A stretch of DNA of 64,000 nucleotides, taken from contig NZ_CP076024.1 of assembly GCF_022788635.1 (NCBI RefSeq), forward strand, positions 558,001-622,000, written 5' to 3'. A program made the position numbers and the translations under genes. Numbering within the stretch: the first letter of the stretch is position 1; the number at the start of each line of letters is the position of its first letter. The notes under the pieces were generated by a model, which saw only the letters and a list, made by a program, of their open reading frames with translations, was not told where the DNA came from and did not search any database. This DNA is from Methylobacter sp. S3L5C. GTDB taxonomy: Bacteria > Pseudomonadota > Gammaproteobacteria > Methylococcales > Methylomonadaceae. Of the stretch, positions 46,402 through 59,453 are shown piece by piece.

Positions 46402-46725
46402 ATGGCTTTTGTAGTCACTGAAAACTGTATTAAATGTAGATTTACTGATTGTGTCGATGTTTGCCCTGTCGACTGTTTTCATGAAGGCCCAAACTTCTTG
46501 GTTATAGATCCAGATGAATGCATTGATTGCACATTGTGTGAACCAGAATGTCCAGCTAATGCAATTTATGCAGAAGATGAATTACCTGAAGGACAAGAAA
46601 TATTTATTAGCTTGAATGCTGAATTAGCCAAACAATGGCCTGTTATTACTGAAGTAAAATCACCATTACCTGATGCCGATGAATGGAATGGAAAAGCAGA
46701 TAAATTAAAATTATTAGAAAAATAA
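46402..46725 (+). CDS. fdxA: 7Fe ferredoxin (FdxA type)
   Basis: A 107-residue cytosolic electron carrier with one [3Fe-4S] and one [4Fe-4S] cluster. By the Azotobacter FdI pattern, Cys9, Cys17 and Cys50 bind the 3Fe cluster, and Cys21, Cys40, Cys43 and Cys46 the 4Fe cluster. The C-terminal extension after ELPEGQE is typical of the FdxA subgroup. It is a single chromosomal gene left between two transposon clusters. A partial inverted repeat (GGTCGG ... TTGACCGA near 46770) lies downstream but may belong to an IS end. Confidence 0.95.
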
Positions 46726-46842
46726 TAAAATAGCCTATCAATTGTTCGACGACAATTACCCTGTCCGGTCGGCGACAACTATCTTGATCGGTTGACCGAT
46801 ATGTAGGACAAGGGTGTATTTCAACTTTTTTGGAGTCCACCC

Positions 46843-47091
46843 TTGCCTGGAAAACGTATCACTCAACATCAAGAGAGTTTATATATGAACACACGTAAAT
46901 CAGGAAAAAGCCAAGAAACCGCAGCAGCTAAAGCCGCCATTTCTGAGCGCTCCGGTCGAAGAATAAAAAAAAGTGAGCGACTATCGATTCATGGAGAACG
47001 TCATTGGCGTACTCGTGAAGATCCTTTGGAAAAAAAATTGGTGCCCTTTGCTAGGAGTTTGTCGGACTTAAGGTTGATGTTAGTTTTTTAG
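46843..47091 (+). pseudogene. IS21-family IstA, N-terminal fragment
   Basis: MPGKRITQHQESLY ... AAAKAAISERSGRRIKKSE ... RHWRTREDPLE is the N-terminal helix-turn-helix part of one IstA subgroup, after which the frame runs out. The two catalytic domains and istB are missing. The sequence just upstream (46760-46800) could be the old element end. Confidence 0.8.
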
Positions 47092-47159: not shown

Positions 47160-47873
47160 TTAAGAATTCAAGACGCAAAGACGCTTTAGATTAAACGCCA
47201 GACACACCAGTATCCATTCACCTTGCACAGCGTCCAGACCCCGTAGCATGAAACGACGAAACCACATAATTTCTTTAATAATACCAAACACGGGCTCTAC
47301 GGTAGATTTACGCTGAGCATAAAGTGCTTTGCCAACATCAGTCTTCATCCGGTGTGCCACCGAGTCAGCGTCTTTCTGCGCGTCAGGTGCCTTGGCAAAG
47401 TGTTCCTCCAACGTTGGATTGTGATGTTGGCGGCCATTGGGCATATAAGGTTCAATGCCTGCTTTCTCGAAATGTTGGGTGTTATCTTTGCTGAAATAGC
47501 CACTATCGGCTGCCACTTTGGTGATGGTTCCGAGTCCGTCCGGCAAACCGGCAAGCACTTGCAAGGCAGGTGCAACTTCTTGTTTATCGTTGGTGTTCTG
47601 GCTTACGTGTTGGCCCACGATCAACATCGTCGCCATGTCCACAGAGGCCTGTGCATTGAAAGCCTACTCAAAGCCACTCGCCGTTGGCATAATGCGTGAG
47701 TCACCGTCGGTAAAGTTGGCTTGCTCTTGTGCGTGGCGCTTGGCGGCACGCAATTCCAATTCGCCTTTGACTTCCGTAATCTTTTCTAACCGCTCTTCCC
47801 GCCGTTGTAACCTTGGCCGTTTTCAGACTCGGCGCGATTGATCAACTCCGCAACTTCGGTATGTAGTTGCGCT
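47160..47873 (-). pseudogene. IS1182-family transposase remnant
   Basis: The main frame (47642-47160) reads MDMATMLIVGQHVSQNTNDKQ, VAADSGYFSKDN with a catalytic Asp, and RKSTVEPVFGIIKEIMWFRRFMLRGL with the Glu. Upstream, ASGFE-stop-AFNAQASVD shows an in-frame TAG, and a frameshifted stretch continues to 47873, where IS66 is inserted. The rest of the gene is not found beyond the IS66 right end, so one side was lost. Confidence 0.82.
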
Positions 47874-47900
47874 GTAAGCATCCAGCGCGACCGTCTACTC

Positions 47901-48705
47901 CTAAATTTTATTCTGTGAATTAACCTCTACCGACACAGCAGGAAATGGTAACAATTCATCAATACGGCTATTGGGCCAGGTTGGCAGTTTTTCCAAGGTA
48001 TTTTTTAGCCATGCCTCAGGGTTTAATCCATTGAGTTTCGCGGTGCCCAATAAGCTCTGAATAGCAGCGGCTCTTTGCCCAGCAAGTTCTGAGCCGGCAA
48101 ACAGCCAGTTCTTTTTTCCTAGCGCAATGGGGCGGATGACGTTTTCAACAGGATTATTGTCAATGGGCAGATGTCCTGTTTCAGCATAACGAATGAAACT
48201 CGCCCAACGCCGCAAGGTGTAATCCATCGCTTTGGCAGACGAGCCTCCGTTAGCGGTTTTAGAACGAGTTGAGATCAGCCATTGATGTAGCTCCGTTAAT
48301 ACCGGCAGGCTTTTAGCCTTTCGGTACTGTTTACGGGCAGCACAATCAATATCCATGGTTTCTGCTTCAATCGCATATAGCTGACCAATGCTTCTTTTGC
48401 CATTGGACTCTGATTGGCCTTATGCAAGTCAAAGAATTTCCGATGCGCATGTGCCCAGCACCCCAATTCGATACAGGGCATTACCGTTTGCTTGGCATTA
48501 AACGAGGCCTTATAACCGCTGTAATCATCTACCATCAGGTGACCATTCCATTCACCCAGGAATCGGCGACAATGTATTCCACCTCTGCCGTCCCGATAGT
48601 CGAAGACGATGATGCGCGGCCCCGATTGTAAATCATTACTACGGTAAGCCCACAGATAAGCTTTTTTGGTCTTGCCGCGCCCTGGATCAAGTTGCGATAC
48701 CGAGG
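47901..48705 (-). pseudogene. IS66 tnpC, 3' exon
   Basis: Continues after the intron with TSVSQLDPGRGKTKKAYLWAY, then VDDYSGYKASF and GCWAHAHRKFFDLH. A one-base deletion near 48385 shifts the frame, after which QLYAIEAETMDIDCAARKQYR and NNPVENVIRPIALGKKNWLFAGSE (catalytic Glu) follow. Joined with 50588-51392 it gives a normal-length TnpC apart from the frameshift. Confidence 0.88.
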
Positions 48706-48746
48706 TGTCGAGTCACCCAAGGGATCTTCCCCCTCAGGTGCTCACG

Positions 48747-48780
48747 GAACCGTACGTGAACCTCTCGATTCATACGGCTC
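48747..48780 (-). ncRNA. Group II intron domain V
   Basis: A 34-base hairpin, starting GAGCCGTATG and ending CGTACGGTTC on the minus strand, the hallmark catalytic domain. A domain VI-like stem (AGGGGGAAGATCCCTT) follows before the 3' splice site. Confidence 0.9.
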
Positions 48781-48783
48781 TTC

Positions 48784-50086
48784 CTATCCAGTCAATTTCA
48801 TACCATAAAATAATCGCCAGTGTGCAAACAAATCAGGCTGACTCCGGGCTACGCCCAGCAACCAATTCTCTGCTCGCTGTCGGTGTCCACGAAAGTGTTT
48901 AAACTTCCGCGCTGCCCACAAAACAAGTTTCCGATTCAAATGTCTCCAAACCGGATTTAATGCCGATCGATAGAACACCCCGTAATACGCTATCCAACCG
49001 CGTATCACAGCATTAAACATCCTTGCCAAATCGTGCAGACTCTTATCACTTTTCTTCTGGAGCGCCCACCCTCGAACTTCCTGGCGTATCGCTTTGGCTG
49101 CTTTATTACTGATAGCCGGAACAAAGCCGGTGAATAAGCCACCTTCTTTGCTTTTCGCTCCACGAGGCCTGAAGGTGAACCCTAGAAAATCAAACGAAAC
49201 GTCCGGGTAATCCTCTTTACACCGATAGTTTTTACAGTACACCACACGGGTCTTCAAAGGATGCAGCTCAAGTCCACAGACTGCAAACCGTTCTTGCAAC
49301 ACCTGTTTTAGCCTTTCCGCCTGCTCTCAACTCCGACAATGTAGAACACCATCATCGGCATAGCGCTCAAACGGAATTTCGGGATAGTGCCTCTGCATCC
49401 ACATATCAAATGTGTAATGCAGAAACAAATTAGCCAACAAGGGGCTAGCAACTCCACCTTGCGGGGTTCCCCGGTCTCTAAGGCTGTAGTGTGCCATCCG
49501 CCATCTGCACGGGTGTTTTCAGCCAACGCTCAATATATAGCAACACCCATTTTTCCTGGGTATGCTTACGTACTGCACGCATGAGTAGATCATGGTCGAT
49601 ATTATCAAAATAACCCTTAATATCGAACTCTAGCACCCAATTGTATGTCTAGCAGCGCTTCCGCGTCACAGACAATGCCTGATGTGCTGATCTTCCTGGC
49701 CGGTATCCATAGGAATCAGGATGGAAGTGCTTCTCCAATTCCGGCTCCAGTACCTGCTTGACCACCGTTTGGGCGATTCGATCCGTCACCGTTGGAATGC
49801 CCAAAGGACGGGTTCCTCCATTGGCTTTGGGAATTTCGACGCGCTTGACCGGCGTAGGCTGATAGCTGCCTGATGCCATCCGATTCCATAGCTTATAGAG
49901 ATTGTTACCAAGATCCTGGTCAAACTTCTCCAGTGTCTGTGCATCAACTCCCGCTCCGCCACGGTTTGCTTTTACTCGTTTGTAAGCTTCCCACACCTGA
50001 TGTTTGGTAATAGGAAACGATTTTGCCGGGTTCAATAGAATCCTCCTGTTGCCAGTTGTTTTATCGTTCCAAGCCAGATAGGGCAA
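48784..50086 (-). pseudogene. Group II intron reverse transcriptase/maturase, broken
   Basis: N-terminal part MPYLAWNDKTTG through RVEIPKANGGTRPLGIPTVTDR and DSYGYRPGRSAHQAL (RT blocks 1-2). Then a TAG where Trp is expected near 49649, a one-base insertion near 49495, the intact active site RYADDGVLHC near 49355, and a TGA near 49326. The rest (49302-48784) carries the maturase domain (DFLGFTFRPRG; RGWIAYYGVFYR). Two stops and one frameshift mean the intron cannot make its own maturase. Confidence 0.9.
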
Positions 50087-50587
50087 CCTCTTTGCTCCAG
50101 TGCCATTACAGCCCCTTCATCACTACTACAGGTTGCTCCGTCCCTGTACTCCACATTGGTACTCTCACACTTGGGATGCTCCCCCTTGTGTTTCTCCCTT
50201 AGCATCGGAGTGACAGGTTCCCACGTTCCACACAAGAGCCCGGATCGCACTCTCGCCACCTCCATGCCGGATGCCGAATGCCGACCGGGCCGTCAACAGG
50301 CACCTCCCGGACTTATCCTGCGGTAACGAAACCTCCGCAGTTTTGACATCGTCTCCACGTTTCGACACGTCATCAGTGGTTCACTTGCGTTCGACTTTAC
50401 GACCCATACCTGACCAAATCGAGTTTGGCCTTTTCCTATCTCGCTCACCACAACGCCTCTTAAACGTTGCAGCAGTAGGTGGTTTGAAGCCTCCGCCTGT
50501 ACGGCGACTTCGAGGGACCTACCCTCATCTCTTGTGCAGCATAGCTGCACGGGGGATTTTCACCCCCAATGCGCCTTCGTGGCACAC

Positions 50588-51392
50588 TTTCGTCGGCATG
50601 CAAGGTATTGCCCTGCAACAAATGCCAAGCCAATCGATCAACCAAGGGTTGTAATGTCACTCCCAGCTTACCGACCCAATCAGCCAAGGTTGAGCGTGAT
50701 AAGGTTACTTTTTGCCGACCGGCGATCTGTTCAATGCGGTACAGTGGTAAATGATCAACGTATTTATTAATGAGTACCCACGTCAGCAGACCCACTGTTG
50801 CCATGCCGCCATTAATAACCGCTGCCGGAATCGGTGCAGCGATGATGGTTTCGCAGTTCTTACAAGCATATTGGGGACGGATGTGACGATGAACGGTAAA
50901 TACAGCCGGCACGACGTCTAATTGTTCGGTGACATCTTCACGAATCTTGATTAAGTCACTGCCACATTGCCCACACTGGCAAGAATCGGGCTCGTGCCGA
51001 AACTCAATACGAGGCAAATGCTCGGGTAATGGTTGGCGTCCAGCACGGGGCCGTTTAGGTTTACAATCCGTGTCGACAGGCGCAGTGGCGCTTAACTGTT
51101 CAAGTGCCGCCTCAGCAGCGGCGACGTCTTCGTTCCAAGACTCCTCAAACAGATCCTTTTGTAGCTGACTAAAGGCTTCGGTTTTGGCGCCGTATCTGAT
51201 CCTGCGTAGATAGGACAGCTCATAAGTTAATGCTTGGATTTTATCTTCTTTGCTTTGAAGCTCAACTGTTTTACGTTGAATTTCTTGCGCATCTTTCTTA
51301 GCCTGTTCGAGCAGCGCACGAACCATTTCTGCCACCTGAGTTTTAGAGGCGTTTTCGAGGTCAAACTGTTCAAATTGGCTAAGTGATTTCAA
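50588..51392 (-). pseudogene. IS66 tnpC, 5' exon
   Basis: Starts MKSLSQFEQFDLENAS with a coiled-coil region, then the zinc-finger-like CQCGQCGSDL and YACKNCETI, and ends at NTLHADE, where the group II intron begins. If the intron is spliced from RNA the 3' exon follows in frame. Confidence 0.9.
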
Positions 51393-51476
51393 GGTGGTAT
51401 TATAACAAATAAAGCCATGAAAGCCTCGTTATTGCTGGGCTACAGCGAAAAAAATAGCTTACTGAAGAGTTATTGT

Positions 51477-51660
51477 CTACATCTGTAAATCTGCTGGCAG
51501 GATGGCCGACAAGCGCTGCCAGTTCACCCCGGCAATTAACCATTGCCATTGCTCAAACGTCACCGAAAAACAGGTGTCTGTAGACTTTGGCCAAACGAAA
51601 CCACCTTCATGTAAACGACGTTGACACAGCCACACGCCAGTACCATCCCAGAGTAGCACT
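51477..51660 (-). pseudogene. IS66 tnpB, 3' part
   Basis: Continues VLLWDGTGVWLCQRRLHEGGFVWP ... FEQWQWLIAGVNWQRLS, the C-terminal half of IS66 TnpB. Its N-terminal half lies 6.7 kb away at 58343-58509, on the other side of the Tn3-family transposon. Joined at ATCAA the two give 116 residues, a normal TnpB. This TnpB is unrelated to the RNA-guided TnpB of IS605/IS607. Confidence 0.9.
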
Positions 51661-52431
51661 TTGATGGGGGTGTGCCCAAACCGCCGAAAATTCCGGCGAG
51701 TCTTTAGCAAGCGTAACAACCCCATTATTCCAACTCCAATTTGGCTACAATCGCATCAAGGTCTATGCTCTGCCCACTATCTCTGAAGGCATAGTGGCCG
51801 TTAAAATGAATATTCCGTCAGGCCGCTGGAGAGACTTTCTTGATGAGCGCCAAAATTTTCAGTTTGGGGGACGCTTCATACTTGTCGAGTATCCGTGACA
51901 GGATAGCGGAATTATAATAAATGATCGCGTTTGCGATTAGCCGTCCACATTCGTTACTGATTTCAATATCCAGATCCGTCCTGCCAGTGAGTTCCTTTTT
52001 GCCGCCAACCTGCGCGATTGCTGCTCGCAGTTGGTGATAGGATTCGATCCGGTTTTGCGAACGATGCGAGTTGCGCTCGATTTGTGGGTCGCGCAGGTAA
52101 CGCAATGTGTAGATGCTGCGGATCAGCTTATCGAACTCAAAGACCCCGCTACGGGTTGGGTTTGATTGCGTGTAGGTACATAATTTCCGAATCAGTGTGC
52201 TTTGAGTCATCTCTTTGACCCCCAGAGTGGCCACGATCTGGTCGATATTGGATTTCTCGTCTAGAACCGCCTTCAAGTCGATACTCCCAACAGGCTGAAT
52301 CAGATATTTCTCGTATTGCACAGGATCACCGCAGTAATAAAGATTCTTCAATTGTACCTCAAGGCTGTCAATGACCAACAGAATTGAGCCATTTTCGGCC
52401 ATTAATATGGAGCCACTTTTCCAGAGAAAAA

Positions 52432-53172
52432 TCACTTATTCAGCCTTGATTTCAGTCGATAACTTTCCCCTCCCAACATAAAAATGTGTGAATGATGGAT
52501 AATTCTGTCAACGATAGGCACGGCGATATTGCCATAAAAAAAGAACTCTCCCCAATGGGTAAATTCCTTATTTGTGGTCAAGATGATTGACCGATATTCA
52601 TACAGGGCATTAATCAGCTGAAACAGGTTGTGCATGCCATTTTTATTCATCGGCAGATAGCCTAGTTCGTCGATGATTAACAGGTCAAACTTGAGTAGCT
52701 GATTAATCTTCTTTTTCAGTTCACCTTTTAATTCCGCCAGTTCCAGCACTTCAATCAAGGTCAACGCCGTACTGAAACAGACCTTGTAACCAGCCTCTAT
52801 GGCTTTAACGCCCAGGCCAATTGTCAGGTGTGTCTTGCCGACGCCAGGCGAGCCAATGAACACCACGTTTTCTCGGTTATCAATGAAGCCAAAGTCCAGC
52901 AGACTGTTGATCTCCCGTTTACTGATGGTAGCTTGGAAGTCGTAATCAAAGTTATCCAAACTTTTATGCACGGGAAAGCCTGCCCGCCGTTTATTTTGTT
53001 CAATACGTTTAGTCTTCCCCTCCTGTTGCTCACGTTCAATCAACGTTTCGGCAAAGTGCAGATAAGAGACGGCATTGGTTTCGGCTTTTCCAAGCATCTG
53101 TTCGAGTCCCTGGGCAATCGCCGAAAAATGCAAACCACGATATTTCTGGGCGACGCTATCAATGGACGACAT
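52432..53172 (-). CDS. istB: IS21-family helper ATPase IstB
   Basis: A 246-residue AAA+ ATPase that helps IstA in transposition. Walker A is GSPGVGKTHL, Walker B LLIIDELGYLP, and sensor 1 IILTTNKEF. I chose the ATG at 53172 (MSSIDSVAQKY), with GGGAGAG just upstream; the frame stays open to 53310 but that part overlaps istA. Intact, unlike its partner istA. Confidence 0.93.
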   Translation of the reverse strand: MSSIDSVAQKYRGLHFSAIAQGLEQMLGKAETNAVSYLHFAETLIEREQQEGKTKRIEQNKRRAGFPVHKSLDNFDYDFQATISKREINSLLDFGFIDNRENVVFIGSPGVGKTHLTIGLGVKAIEAGYKVCFSTALTLIEVLELAELKGELKKKINQLLKFDLLIIDELGYLPMNKNGMHNLFQLINALYEYRSIILTTNKEFTHWGEFFFYGNIAVPIVDRIIHHSHIFMLGGESYRLKSRLNK

Positions 53173-54702
53173 AGTGCTCTCCCTGTCCGCCAGACTGGCC
53201 ATTAAGCACCGCATAATGCGCCAACGCACTGACCGAGACTGACGCGGGTTGACTAGTCGTTGTCGCCGCCAAGCGCTCAGGATGTTGTTGATAAGCGTCC
53301 AGGGTGTCACGCAACTGCGTCGCCGTTAAACGGGGCGCGATCAAAATACGTTCTAACAATTCAGTGCTGATATCGCCAAACTACGCGGTATGTGTCGCGA
53401 TGACTTGCTTGGCACCCAATAACTGATCCTTATAGATTTTAGGCGAGGTTGCCTTTAATAGCACACATAAGCGTTGGCTGGCAGGGACTCCCAATTGCTG
53501 TTCCAATGCGGCTTCCAAGGTCTCTATACGCTGCTTCATATCCCGATAATGATGGGTGTACTTAATGATCTGGCCTTTCTCCAGACTGATAACATGTTCG
53601 GCAATCCGATCGCCGCTGGTAAGATCATTAATCAGCAGTTGTCCGGCATCAGCCGATACGCCTACTTTTGCCGATTGATAGGCCATGGGTACCGAGTATT
53701 TATTTGATTGCCAGGAAATCAGACTGGTTTTATCAACCTGTCGGGTTTCCTGTACTATCGACTTAGCCAGTAAGCAAGTAGGCGTTAAATACGGCTGCAT
53801 TTAATTTTTTCTTCGCTGTCATAATGTGTCCATGGTTGCTGACCAGTAGTACCATGCAGACGTTTGTTTGCCACCGTATCGAGCCAATCCGCCATATACA
53901 TTTCCAGGCTTTTCCAGTCTTTAAAGGTTTCACCATAAAGCCCGTTTTGCTTCACGTATTTGACGCCGGACTCGACCTTACCTTTGCTTTCAGGGTCATA
54001 ACCCTCACAGGCGCGAATATGGAACCCTGCGCCAGTAGCGTATTGATGAAAGCGTTGGTTTAGCTCTAATTCACGGAAGATTTCATGGATGACGACCAGT
54101 TTGGTTTGATCGTAAACGCATTCTTGTGGCATGCCGCCAAAATAACGAAAAGCAGCGTCATGCTGGTAAATTAACGCTTGTGTATCAATGGGCTGAGCTG
54201 ATATTGATACATGCATCAGTCGGGAATAAGACAGAACAAATACCATGAAGTACACCGTCGTCTCTTTGCCGCCAATCATTACCCCACGCAATTCACCGCC
54301 ATCAACCTGACATTGCACACCTGGCACCATATCAACCACTGGCTCGTAATAACGCGGTTGCTTAAAGCTGATTTCAGCCTTTAACGCTTCAATATAGCGG
54401 CGCACCGAACGATCAGAAACCGCCAAAGAATCAACCTTGTCCTTTAACTTACGCATGACTTCCACAGCTGACAAGTTCGGATAAGTTTGCAGCAACTGAA
54501 TAATATAGACACGGTAGGCATCCAGCTTTTTGGTTCTGGCCATCTCATCAAGTTGACCGGCTATCTGGGTCTCGGACCTATGCAGATATTTGCTCACGGT
54601 ATTGCGTGACAAACCCAGCTCTTTGGCAATCTTACGCTCGGTCAAGCCGTTGCCGTTATCGTATAACGATTTGATCTTATGGATCACAATCCACTCCTTC
54701 AT
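53159..54702 (-). pseudogene. istA: IS21-family transposase istA, frameshifted
   Basis: Starts MKEWIVIHKIKSLYDNG with the helix-turn-helix KIAKELGLSRNTVSKYL. The integrase core has Asp in CQVDGGELRG, Asp in VYDQTKLVVI, and Glu in ESKGKVESGVKYVKQ. A frameshift near 53795 (KIK/MQPYLT) and an in-frame TAG at 53381 break it, after which TELLERILIAPRL continues to 53159. All catalytic residues lie before the first break, so a truncated catalytic protein might still form. Confidence 0.9.
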
Positions 54703-57100
54703 AGTAGTCCTTGAATAAAAAATTCAGGGACTATCTCAGATTCATTATTTAAAAGAAAATCTGAAAAAGTGGCTCAAAATTAATGGCCATTACTGGCTCA
54801 GTTTAATTGGCCATTAACACTCAAGGCTAGTGAAACGCGGTTCGAACCGCAATCCGAACCAGTACGTGATTGCGAAATTGGCCTTGTTAACGCTATGCTT
54901 GTCACCGGTAATCACCATTGGCACGATGTCTGATGTATTCTGATACCAGATGTCGAAAACAAAATGGGCTTCAAATTCATGGGCGCCGATCAGCCCGCCG
55001 TTCACGGATACATGGTTACATGGCATGGTATAAGCCACCACACCTTTCCCCCTTCCAAAATATTTTCTGGAATACCGAGCTTTGATGGTTGGGTGTTCGA
55101 CCCCAAGTTTTTGCCCATCAACGGCACCGTACAATATCCCCAGATCGAACGAGTAATGTGGAAAAATAGACAGCCCTGCGATAGCATTGCTGATGGCGTC
55201 ATTTGCTTTTTTCAGAGTAGCCCGCCGTAAGTATTGCTGATGCGTGGTCCCCAGGATGTGATAGGGAATATCGCTGGCCTGTGCCATTTTAAGATTGCCA
55301 TAATTCATCGCTTGAGCGATGATAACCGCAAACAGACTGTCCTTGTCGGTGATTTACTTGGCGTAACGCGGCTGCAACGGTGTCATTGCCGATAAAAAGT
55401 GGCATTGCTTATTAACAAAACGAAGTACATCGGCAACATCGCAGAAGCCCATCTTGCTGTAGAAACTTTCCTGGAGTGCTTTATCGTTGCTGGCTTTGTA
55501 TTTATGCCATGTGAGTGTTTTTAGCTGACTATCGTATTCAAGGTGTTTTAGCTTTCCTTGGCGGAGGTCGCTGTCGAATGCCAGCCAAAGGCTATGAAGT
55601 TCATCGGTCAAAACTTTAAGTTGAGCTTCTATAGACTGACGTACTCAGGAAATGTCTAATTGCTGAAGCACAGTCGGCGTCTTCTCCAAGGAAACGAGTT
55701 CATGCGTGAAACATTGATGCTGGACGCTGTCTGCCAGGTAGAGCTCACCTGACTTGAAGCGTTTCCTGATTTGCCTATAAATCCAAAATTCGTACCGGTC
55801 AGCCTGCACGCAGTGGTTTTTCCCTCCGTATCAATGACCAGCAGATAGCATCGCAATCGCGGCGAGACGGTTTTTTCTAAGCACTCGTTCATCGGTTGCA
55901 GCGACAAGCGTTGTTGTTTGGCAAACACGCCCTTCATTAAAGTTAGCGCCCCCAACCACGGGTTATCCGGCACCGTACTGGAAAAATCGAGTGCACAGTA
56001 AAGCGGACGCAAGTGCTTGCGACAATAAGTAGTCAACTGCTCTACCACTTGCCACCGCAGTTCCATTTTGCTCAACGGTTGCTCGCATAAGCGTTGGCCA
56101 GTGATTTGTAATGTATCTTTAGGCATGATGGCAAAGGCCTGCTGACGGACTTCGCCGAAAGAAGTGTCATCGATTACCTGCTCATCGACATAGATCAGCA
56201 ACAAGCGCCCAATCTGAGAGGTTTCCTATTGTCTATTAGCCTGATTCTGGGCAATGAGCTTGTTCGCCTTGAGCTTGGTGCCGTCTTCGAGCCGCTTCAT
56301 TCGGTAACCCAAGGCGTCAACCAGATTATCGGTCAGTTGCCGATAGCGAAGCCAGACGTAACATAATAAGTATAGATGGGGCTGTTCCTGCTTCAGGCGG
56401 CGAAGATCGTAGATCGTGTAAAAATGCGCGAGACTCGCGTAATAGTTAAGGTTCTGCTGAGAAATTGCCAATTTTGGCAAGAGTGCTTTAGCCAGTTTAT
56501 ATAAGGGTTCCAAGGCGGTACGCTTCTGCCGCTCCAAAACCATCATGCGGTAACCAAAGTGTTTGGCGTCTTGTTTGAGAGCGGCCAATCCGGACAAAGT
56601 ATCATCGCGCACAAGAAGTTGCTGGAGCGCCGTTTTTGCTGAATCGTCTAGCATCTCGGTGAGTAACATTCCCAGTCGCTTACGTTCGTTGGACAGTGTT
56701 TCGCTGATGAGAGACTGTAATGTCGTATAGTCTGGTCGAACGATCTTCTGATCATTTAAATAGCCGATAAGCTCAACCAAGATAAAACTGGGCGTGACAT
56801 CGCGTGAAACAACCTGAGTAGCTCGTTCGACAAGTGACGGTAAAAAATCCGTCGCCGATAGCCGATAGCCAAACAAGTCAACGATCAACGCGCGTTGTGC
56901 GTAATATTCATGCTTGGCGGTACCGGAAGAAAAGCCAAATCATTGAAGTAGTGTGTCAGAATAAAAGTACAGTCATCTTCCACTTCATCCCAGGAAAATT
57001 GGAAAAATGCCTGTTTGGCCTTGAAACAACCAATTTGCAATGAGCAGTAAACTTGAGCATACACATTCCGTTGGTCGAGTACCAGTGCCATCTCCTGTTC

Positions 57101-57351
57101 CAGCAATTCTCATTATGGAAAGATAAATAAAATCAAAAAAGATAGCGCTTAGGTTTTGAAAGTACGTGTGTATTCTACCGCAATACTTGCAAAGTAACCG
57201 AAGAGCCGAATTGGTAATAATATTAGCGCCCCTGTTTTATAAGGCTTTACGGCATCTGTGAAAAATAGGATTCTGTAGAAATTAAAACAAGCTTGTAAAT
57301 TTAAATCATAACATCATGATTTAAAACTATTTTCCATAATGAGAATTGCAG
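57101..57351. mobile_element. 251-base MITE-like element in the Tn3 tnpA
   Basis: 21-base inverted ends with one mismatch: CAGCAATTCTCATTATGG (57101) and, inverted, CTGCAATTCTCATTATGG (57351). CTCCTGTTC flanks both sides (57092-57100 and 57352-57360), a 9-base target duplication. Removing it and one duplication joins FIFTEQE to MALVLDQRN and restores the tnpA frame. No ORF of note is inside. I do not recognise the parent transposon. Confidence 0.88.
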
Positions 57352-57610
57352 CTCCTGTTCGGTAAATATAAAATATTCCATCCGTTGGCTGTCGTCAAAA
57401 TCAGGCAGCCCATACAAGGCGAATTGCTCCTGGCTGGACAGTAATGTTAAGTCTTTCGCTTTTAGTCAGCATAGATCACATGCAAATTGTATAGGTAAAA
57501 ACGAGCGTTAATATAGCACCATAATTACCATGTAAAATATAATGAAAGACCTATCCATTTTGGATTGTTTTAAGGCATATTTTAGTTTAATACTTAACAG
57601 GCGCTATTTT

Positions 57611-58234
57611 ATGGGAAAAATCGTCGCTTATTTACGTGCATCTACCGACAAGCAAGATTTGAATAATCAAAATCTGGAAATTTTGGAATTTGCGCGCAAA
57701 AAGGAGATTCGTATTGATGAATTTGTCGAAATCACTATTTCATCGCGTAAAACCAGCAAACAACGAAGGATAGATGAATTGATGGGAATGCTGATTGAGA
57801 CTGATACGCTGGTTGTTACTGAACTCAGTAGACTGGGGCGCAGCACGGCGGAGGTCATTACGTTGGTTAATGCCTTAGTACTACGCAATATCCGCGTCAT
57901 TACCATCAAGCAAAATCTGGATATTGCGAATCAGGATATGAATGCCAAGTTCATTATTACGCTGTTCTCGCTGTTCGGCGAATTGGAGAGGGATTTGATC
58001 AATTTGCGCACCAAAGAAGCTTTAGCCGCAAAAAAAGCTAGTGGTCAGCAACTCGGTAAGCCAAAAGGCACTTTACAGAAAAGTAAATTCGATAATAGCT
58101 TGGATCGTATCAAGGAATTGCTCGGATATGGCATTTCCGTCCGGAAGATTGCAAAAGTGTTGGGCTATTCGAGTCACATCGCACTCAATACTTATATCAA
58201 TAAACGCGGTCTACAACAGTCGATTAAGAGTTAG
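57611..58234 (+). CDS. tnpR: Serine resolvase of the Tn3-family transposon
   Basis: A 207-residue site-specific recombinase that would resolve cointegrates at a res site. Catalytic Ser lies in VAYLRASTDKQ (about residue 10) and the essential Arg in VVTELSRLGRSTAEV; the C-terminal helix-turn-helix is ISVRKIAKVLGYSSHIAL. I chose the ATG at 57611; the frame opens at 57542. It diverges from tnpA, so res should lie in 57473-57610. It looks intact although tnpA is dead. Confidence 0.9.
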   Translation: MGKIVAYLRASTDKQDLNNQNLEILEFARKKEIRIDEFVEITISSRKTSKQRRIDELMGMLIETDTLVVTELSRLGRSTAEVITLVNALVLRNIRVITIKQNLDIANQDMNAKFIITLFSLFGELERDLINLRTKEALAAKKASGQQLGKPKGTLQKSKFDNSLDRIKELLGYGISVRKIAKVLGYSSHIALNTYINKRGLQQSIKS

Positions 58235-58342
58235 CCTACCACCGATGTTAACGCGATTTATGGCAAGTTGGCCTTAAAATAAGGGCTGGAGATATTTACT
58301 AAGGTCTCTCCGGTATTTTCGGCGGTTTGGGCTTACACCCCC

Positions 58343-58509
58343 TTGATGCGATTACCGAGGCGGTTACGAAAGACAATGGAGACACCTGAGCAAGGCACCT
58401 TACCCAAAGCTTCTTGGGCAATCATCGACAAGCCATCAATGCCACGCCGCATGTCCACCGGCTCGACCGCCAACCAAATAGCGATAGGATCTGTTATTAA
58501 CCCAGGCAT
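58343..58509 (-). pseudogene. IS66 tnpB, 5' part
   Basis: MPGLITDPIAIWLAVEPVDM ... SGVSIVFRNRLGNRIK, the N-terminal half of TnpB, cut by the Tn3-family transposon after ATCAA. It continues at 51660. Its ATG overlaps the tnpA stop by 13 bases, as usual in IS66. Confidence 0.9.
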
Positions 58510-58802
58510 TGTAATAGCTCCGCAAGCCAGCTCGGCGAGCTGGTAACGGGCAGTTCCAATGAGAGTCCATTGACTAACCGTAGTCGCAAGGGTTCATTTA
58601 TCGCCGGCGGAGTTGTAATCGATTGTGTAACGTCAATTGCAATTAAGGAAGGTGCCATTGCTTGGGAAAGTGCTTGATAATTGCTAAACCATCTTGAAAA
58701 CGTTTTTTTATTCAATCCATGTGTTTGGCAATAAGCTGCTTGCGAAGAATCACACGCTTGCCATGTTTTTATATGTTTTAGTTGCTGTTCAGTTAATGCC
58801 AT
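58497..58802 (-). CDS. IS66-family accessory protein TnpA
   Basis: A 101-residue protein. MALTEQQLKHIKTWQACDSS and QAAYCQTHGLNKKTFSRWFSNY form the helix-turn-helix of IS66 OrfA, which is needed for transposition together with TnpB and TnpC. Intact and first in the IS66 operon. Confidence 0.88.
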   Translation of the reverse strand: MALTEQQLKHIKTWQACDSSQAAYCQTHGLNKKTFSRWFSNYQALSQAMAPSLIAIDVTQSITTPPAINEPLRLRLVNGLSLELPVTSSPSWLAELLQCLG

Positions 58803-59033
58803 GAGATATCCTCAGAAAAAAACTAAAGGATACCAGTGCCTTTAGAATGTTTTAAGATGGTGGCGCTACGCGCTTACACACTATCAATAATAGTATGAAG
58901 ATATTTATATCAAACACACACAACCTTTCGATATGTTGGTAGTATTAAGTAATGATTATTTTTTATTACAAAAGAAAATCAACTTTAATAGCTTAATTTT
59001 GCAAAGTATCCGAATATCGGTTACAGCTTAATT

Positions 59034-59078
59034 AAAGACATAAAAAAAGCCGGTTTAACCGGCTTTTTTTATGTCTTT
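59034..59078. terminator. Perfect palindromic terminator after rplQ
   Basis: A 45-base perfect palindrome centred on GCCGGTTTAACCGGC, with A7 and T7 flanking the GC core and AAAGACAT/ATGTCTTT outside. It starts 12 bases past the rplQ stop and can terminate from either side, shielding the ribosomal operon from the IS66 cluster. Confidence 0.95.
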
Positions 59079-59090
59079 AATATTTAACTG

Positions 59091-59453
59091 TTATTCTGGT
59101 CTATCAACCAATTCGACATAAGCCATAGGTGCGTCATCACCAGGCCTAAATCCACATTTCATGATGCGTAAATAACCACCTGCTCTATTTTTATAACGTG
59201 GACCTAACTCATTAAAAAGTTTGGTTACAACTTCACGATCGCGTAATCTTGCAAATGCAAGACGTCTTTTTGCTACACTATCCTCTTTGGATAAAGTAAT
59301 CAAAGGCTCGGCAAAACTCCTTAATTCTTTAGCTTTAGGTAAAGTTGTTTTAATTAATTCGTGCTTGAATAACGAACTAACCATATTGCTGAATAACGCC
59401 TTACGATGGCTGCTATTCATATTGAATTTTCTACCTGATTTACGATGTCTCAT
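59091..59453 (-). CDS. rplQ: 50S ribosomal protein L17
   Basis: 120 residues, [20 protein letters not shown] at the start and the conserved [24 protein letters not shown] near the end. Lies on the large subunit near the exit tunnel. Last gene of the alpha operon, 17 bases after rpoA and directly before the terminator. Confidence 0.98.

Follow-up and report, generated by a model that had tools for sequence, protein, structure and literature searches.

Nested insertion sequences (IS elements) and transposons are common in bacterial chromosomes, where elements lie within elements. That IS elements and other introns can serve as homing targets of group II introns has likewise already been described (available text of PMC2882425, PMC4424553 and PMC3522654). 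Here we analyse a 64,000-bp stretch (the window) covering positions 558001-622000 of the single 4,815,745-bp contig of Methylobacter sp. S3L5C, a lake methanotroph whose genome is a PacBio and Illumina hybrid assembled with Unicycler (PMC9723741, in the part available). In this window, an IS66-family element between the genes fdxA and rplQ has its tnpC interrupted by a group II intron and its tnpB by a Tn3-family transposon, and the transposon in turn carries an IS21-family element and a miniature inverted-repeat transposable element (MITE) in its tnpA.

We conclude, with a probability of about 0.93, that this array is a nest of mobile elements, now decayed, which arose through separate insertions between the convergent genes fdxA and rplQ. 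Nested IS remnants are ordinary in kind, and a preliminary description, which called this record unusual, is broadly correct. The evidence for the order of insertion is unusually good. The part that we consider worth following is the choice of target by the intron.

Results

Order of insertion

The preliminary description counted five elements in one IS66 element; all lie where it placed them, the count being four plus the IS66 element itself (Table 1). Pfam matches above cut-off identify IS66 TnpC and TnpB, the Tn3 DDE transposase, IstB, the resolvase and the reverse transcriptase of the intron, Rfam recognizes two group II intron domains, and the three target duplications that had been read from the letters, TTGAT for Tn3, CTCAAGGC for IS21 and the 9-base CTCCTGTTC for the MITE, are exact. 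The interrupted reading frames had been said to be restored, which is the case for IS66 TnpB at the Tn3 join and for Tn3 TnpA at the IS21 and MITE joins, and not for TnpC at the intron join. Rebuilt TnpB aligns unbroken across the Tn3 join (143 residues, 86% identity to a relative) and Tn3 TnpA keeps one frame across each of its two joins. The tnpC exons are one base out of frame at the intron join, the intron ends being fixed by a related locus (L298; L numbers denote compared loci) whose exons join in frame, and the frame shifts again near 48386.

Empty sites in relatives had been suggested as a check, and unoccupied counterparts are indeed present, in independent DNA, for all four inner insertions. 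Five IS66 copies have an empty Tn3 site, namely L102 of Methylobacter psychrophilus, L132 and L133 of S3L5C itself, and L105 and L135 of two further Methylobacter genomes; in L105 and L135 the site of the intron is empty as well, and L131, a Tn3 copy of M. psychrophilus, has neither IS21 nor the MITE at their sites. Together with the duplications, these sites bear out the earlier order of IS66, then Tn3, then IS21 and MITE, and sharpen it by one step: the intron probably entered before Tn3, because L102 bears IS66 and intron with an unoccupied Tn3 site. L102 and the window are 98.8% identical in the tnpC 5' exon and 98.9% identical over the 1735 intron bases compared. Independent homing of the intron into two near-identical IS66 copies is a possible alternative to this single entry.

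In the history that we propose, IS66 would have arrived beside an IS1182-type element, the group II intron would then have retrohomed into tnpC at the codons for its HADE motif, Tn3 would have landed in tnpB, and IS21 and the MITE would have followed into Tn3 tnpA, in either order.

Several observations weigh against this history. The unoccupied IS21 and MITE sites have one contig, L131, as their witness. The part of IS66 to the right of Tn3 is 95.7% identical to L102 and the parts to the left are 98.4-98.8% identical, so recombination among IS66 copies is possible. Moreover, the average nucleotide identity between the two genomes is 92.9% (given in the available part of PMC9679665), and the IS66 exons exceed this value in their identity to M. 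psychrophilus; the excess suggests transfer or recent spread, and a simple vertical order is less well supported for it. The closest relative, L002 of M. psychrophilus, has no fdxA within 9 kb of rplQ, and its gap is therefore no guide to the ancestral state. Finally, no 8-bp duplication surrounds IS66, the eight bases at its two ends being different; L105, the sole intron-free copy with both flanks readable, is also without one; and neither a second IS1182 half nor IS1182 sequence to the right of IS66 was found.

The outermost junction

IS66-family elements have terminal inverted repeats that start GTAAGC and make an 8-bp target duplication. The ends of the window element read GTAAGCATCC and GTAAGCGCGT, which are inverted repeats of this type, and its genes comprise TnpB and TnpC, both above the Pfam cut-off, and TnpA, recognized by comparison with L105 from an open reading frame (ORF) that has no Pfam match. 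We based IS66 membership on these genes and ends, the duplication being an insertion trace that later deletion can remove.

That IS66 inserted into IS1182, as first described, is plausible and half supported: a transposase remnant stands on its left, which we take, as the earlier reader did, to be of the IS1182 family, and the duplication and right-hand half are missing. We give even odds to a different origin of the junction at 47873/47874, by recombination or deletion beside IS66 without transposition into the remnant. The lack of a flanking duplication fits this, as do the ORFs of the IS1182-type relative L110, which match the window solely at 47221-47600, and the right flank from IS66 to the rplQ hairpin (58878-59030, about 150 bp), which has no match among the other compared loci at E 0.001. 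Adjacent deletion and recombination between IS copies are, furthermore, frequent documented causes of lost target duplications (PMC11708052, available text). The left terminus of IS66, on the other hand, is complete and abuts the transposase reading, as an insertion would leave it. If IS66 did insert into IS1182, the other IS1182 half and the IS66 duplication would have been lost through adjacent deletion or rearrangement.

Target site of the group II intron

The 5' exon ends in TGYNGAYGA followed by two bases in 11 of the 14 close relatives of the window intron, itself included; L187 has a near match to this string, and L250 and L251 are at another site. Nine of the 14 are inserted in frame in an enzyme gene, at an A-D-(E/D) motif, and the enzyme is either an IS66-type TnpC or a reverse transcriptase (RT). 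The four TnpC hosts are those of the window, L245 and L246 (HADE) and L209 (HVDE), and the five RT hosts are those of L210, L189, L229 and L247 (YADD) and L188 (YVDD). L233 is left out of this count of nine, and the host of L253 gave no family match. All five RT hosts score above the cut-off for RVT_1; two IS66 host pieces fall below theirs (L246 with 179.3 bits against 180, L209 with 18.1 against 23.1). A single insertion probably underlies the introns of the window and L245, which makes eight host genes of the nine in-frame cases.

In both enzymes the insertion point lies one base past the codon following the first aspartate, a residue that in HADE we presume to be catalytic. YADD is the RT active site (PMC4424553, available text). 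More distant introns sit elsewhere, the string being present in just 8 of the 43 introns of the pairing set described below.

The queries for relatives were the first 208 or 350 intron bases. Matches to the intron start occur in 25 of 237 genomes of the family, 40 of 311 of the order, 18 of 369 of the class and 8 of 398 of the phylum, which are overlapping sets. A class-wide pattern for the intron start was present in 40 of 369 genomes; among 30 loci examined, only L229 and L233 align as introns besides the window copy (L236). Close relatives were those whose 5' end was readable and that aligned over 119 bases or more at no less than 73% identity, a limit chosen after the list had been seen; including the window intron, they are L244, L209, L245, L246, L187, L188, L210, L189, L229, L233, L247, L250, L251 and L253. 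Plasmid records with related introns (616 in one search and 291 in another, many from Shigella) are set aside from the target-site counts.

Intron nucleotides 257-262, the loop of exon-binding site 1 (EBS1), pair with the last six exon bases, the intron-binding site 1 (IBS1), and covary with them. At IS66 sites TTTCGT faces ACGAAA or ATGAAA, at RT sites AGTCGT faces ATGACT or ATGATT, and further combinations are CGTTGT with ATAATG and TAGTGG with CTACTA. At least five of the six pairs form in 11 of 12 rows, L254 having three. In a larger set, 32 of 43 introns have at least five of six pairs, against a mean of 4.4 and a maximum of 11 among 2000 rounds of shuffled partners. These 43 come from 62 loci, with 19 dropped (6 were too short, and 13 had no GTGYG start close to where it was expected), and the set leaves out L204-L208, L212, L213 and L249. 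For ten rows picked afterwards, without L254 and L245, 57 of 60 pairs form, a value that 6 of 20000 permutations attain; the shuffle figures are indicative, since rows that are related are not independent. The covariation supports the view that EBS1-IBS1 pairing guided the intron to its site, as far as sequences can tell.

A tree of 18 rows joins the four IS66-site introns in one clade (100/100) beside L233 (99/98). RT-site rows surround this clade, in a branching order that the tree does not settle. The lineage may specialize in the catalytic-aspartate codons of enzymes of other mobile elements, and a change of about two bases in EBS1 (AGTCGT to TTTCGT) may have let it cross between enzyme families, because YADD/YVDD and HADE/HVDE share nearly the same string, TGYNGAYGA. 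We regard this proposal as finely balanced between right and wrong. If it is true, the target cannot mutate away without killing the host element, and hence the site is always on offer.

Decay and movement of the intron

Group II introns comprise the RNA domains D1-D4 and V-VI, start with GUGYG, end in AY and carry an RT ORF. The window intron has RNA domains of this kind, a GTGTG start, a GAC end and an RT above the Pfam cut-off, with a broken ORF. In L298, from another genus, an intron at the same HADE site is 94.5% identical over 1881 columns, and its exons are 73.5% (570 aligned columns of 1078 bases) and 66.5% (614 columns of 833 bases) identical to those of the window, so the intron has moved independently of its host elements. 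The RT frame of L298 is open over 445 residues and includes YADD. Relative to L102, the RT ORF of the window is interrupted by two stops and one frame change; the L102 frame is open to the contig end, with YADY in place of YADD, and L102 itself runs only to 48853, within the intron and short of its 3' end.

The S3L5C genome holds two copies of this intron, in different genes and with exact ends: that of the window and L134 (G000:C1:3345000-3350500). They have in common three lesions that break the RT, namely stops at 49650 and 49329 and a one-base insertion at 49481, none of which is in L102. A dead intron mobilized in trans by the RT of another intron would account for this, and other RT matches without internal stops are present in the genome. 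There is precedent in Thermosynechococcus elongatus, where introns without a protein of their own are moved by that of another (PMC2882425, available part). Gene conversion between the two copies gives the same picture, however, as these differ solely within the first 546 nt and not at all from 50041 to 48707; we therefore hold mobilization in trans as a tentative reading, somewhat short of an even chance.

An assembly chimera of repeated elements is a highly improbable source of the nest, for while the genome does contain further full or partial copies of IS66, intron and IS21, repeats of the sort that defeat short-read assembly, all inner elements have exact duplications or splice sites at their borders, features that a chimera would not create, a 1101-base Tn3 tnpA probe has a single place in the genome, and PacBio reads went into the hybrid assembly.

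Tn3, IS21 and MITE

Tn3-family transposons have inverted repeats of about 38 bp and make a 5-bp duplication. The window element has a DDE transposase (PF01526), a resolvase (PF00239), inverted repeats and the TTGAT duplication. Its tnpA contains at least three frame changes, as well as stops at 57449, 56228, 55647, 55356 and 51820. Compared with L131, it shows five length differences not divisible by three, a comparison that does not tell which of the two rows changed; tnpA of L131 is itself split into two ORFs. Identity between the two is 98.6%, 96.2% and 98.1% in three parts, and the match ends at 57573, short of the right Tn3 end.

IS21 elements carry istA and istB, have TG...CA ends and make a 4-8 bp duplication. 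In the window, IstB (PF01695) is accompanied by an rve match of 32.0 bits against a cut-off of 32.6, the CTCAAGGC duplication and the ends TGTCAATG and CATTAACA. The istB ORF is open and istA is broken, as it also is in the relative L136.

MITEs are short and non-coding, with inverted repeats, a constant duplication length and multiple copies, and the window element is of this kind. Its end pattern is present in 8 of 35 Methylobacter genomes, with lengths of 193-271 bp, and an exact 9-bp duplication flanks seven of the ten full-length copies examined (L140, L152 and L167 lack one, and 10 bp would fit L152). Of the other nine, four are similar to the window MITE throughout (72-95%) and five share little with it beyond the ends. 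No transposase-bearing partner was seen by eye in 30 loci (35 places), with ORFs listed for one. L160, considered as an autonomous partner, was rejected, since by eye its left end is followed about 240 bases on by a degenerate right end, beyond which lies a long ORF left out of the family searches. In L144 and L156 (G026), the MITE ends form 45-bp palindromes with almost no interior and without a duplication.

Genomic setting

Among the RpoA relatives listed, M. psychrophilus Z-0021 is the nearest (98%). The left neighbour of the array is, judged by its sequence and position, presumably fdxA, and we take the right neighbour to be rplQ, the last gene of the ribosomal operon, from its position adjoining rpoA. 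The two genes are 12.4 kb apart in the window. In 80 rpoA loci, they are convergent and less than 400 bp apart in 19, of which 17 have 70-157 bp between them; fdxA is further off in five, the contig is too short in eight, and fdxA was not found in 48 despite more than 1500 bp following, L002 included.

The proximity to an essential ribosomal operon, which the preliminary description had mentioned in calling the record unusual, does not stand out: the array sits behind the hairpin adjoining rplQ, a putative rplQ terminator, in a convergent gap that measures about 100 bp in relatives. A disturbed ribosomal operon is ruled out by the same position. Nothing was noticed that would point to a present function of the array, and no function test was made.

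Three side observations concern the flanks. Behind the rplQ hairpin of M. psychrophilus, L002 11380-11700 resembles, by eye, the 3' end of some other group II intron, with a domain V-like stretch. Given more sequence, the closest relative matches the right flank of the array only from about 58997 onward. Beside fdxA, 46743-47030 is 85% identical to L007:12815-13104 of M. luteus, where it lies about 1 kb past fdxA, and may be another shared insert or a short gene.

Table 1. Features of the array and its host neighbours, in window coordinates
Feature	Position	Strand	Basis or remark
fdxA (ferredoxin), left host neighbour	46402..46725	+	ORF; convergent with rplQ
IS1182-type transposase remnant, C-terminal part, left of IS66	47160..47873	-	PF13751 and PF01609 on 47160-47642
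IS66-family element, imperfect terminal inverted repeats GTAAGC...	47874..58877	-	Pfam, sequence comparison
IS66 tnpC 3' exon	47901..48706	-	PF03050, PF13817; frame change near 48386
Group II intron, 1881 nt, broken RT ORF	48707..50587	-	Rfam RF00029 and RF01999 (two intron domains)
EBS1 loop, intron nt 257-262, TTTCGT	50326..50331	-	Pairs and covaries with 5' exon in relatives
IBS1 ACGAAA, within HADE codons plus one base	50588..50593	-	
IS66 tnpC 5' exon	50588..51428	-	PF03050, PF13005, PF13007
IS66 tnpB, left of Tn3	51480..51665	-	PF05717; resumes at 58348-58590
Tn3 target duplication TTGAT, exact	left 51661..51665, right 58343-58347	.	
Tn3-family transposon, inverted repeats starting GGGGGTGT	51666..58342	.	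Pfam, repeats, duplication
Tn3 tnpA pseudogene, split by IS21 and MITE	51728..57461	-	PF01526; stops, frame changes
IS21 target duplication CTCAAGGC, exact	left 52358..52365, right 54820-54827	.	
IS21-family element, 2454 bp	52366..54819	-	PF01695 above cut-off; PF00665 just below
MITE target duplication CTCCTGTTC, exact	left 57092..57100, right 57352-57360	.	
MITE, 251 bp, ends CAGCAATTCTC...	57101..57351	.	
Tn3 serine resolvase tnpR	57611..58234	+	PF00239; open frame
IS66 tnpB, right of Tn3	58348..58590	-	Rebuilt-protein alignment
IS66 tnpA (ORF1)	58503..58811	-	73% identity to L105 TnpA; ORF 58497-58802 without Pfam match
Perfect hairpin, 25-bp arms, adjoining rplQ	59031..59081	.	Inverted repeat
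rplQ, last gene of the ribosomal operon	59091..59453	-	ORF; product matched in 80/80 rpoA loci

Discussion

The nest offers a clean stratigraphy, checked against related copies, of how mobile elements pile up and decay in an intergenic gap. The intron offers a testable rule for host switching, in which the guide loop tracks a DNA word common to two unrelated catalytic motifs. Such a rule predicts where more introns of the lineage occur and which loop changes go with a switch of host.

We found no report of one intron lineage using the catalytic codons of both an RT and an IS66 transposase, nor, in the literature on nesting and on methanotroph MITEs, of the present array; subscription papers were mostly outside the coverage of both searches, which makes this weak evidence of absence.

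Like other nested bacterial IS elements and transposons, the array consists of elements within elements with their target duplications intact. It differs from the usual case in that each inner level has an unoccupied counterpart, and the order could be tested rather than read off. As to the intron, those of T. elongatus (PMC2882425) and Methanosarcina acetivorans (PMC4424553) likewise home to conserved sites in IS elements or group II introns, according to the available text of each. The c-Ha.de.I1 introns resemble the window intron in forming one family with a consensus homing site, whose members stand at constant positions both in IS elements and in further copies of the intron itself; their host IS elements are ISPlu15-like and IS427-like, and the available part of the description, by which we compare them, does not mention catalytic codons (PMC3522654). 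The inner introns of T. elongatus insert between two start codons (PMC2882425, available text), whereas the present lineage sits at the aspartate codons of HADE or YADD in two unrelated enzymes, an IS66 transposase and an RT.

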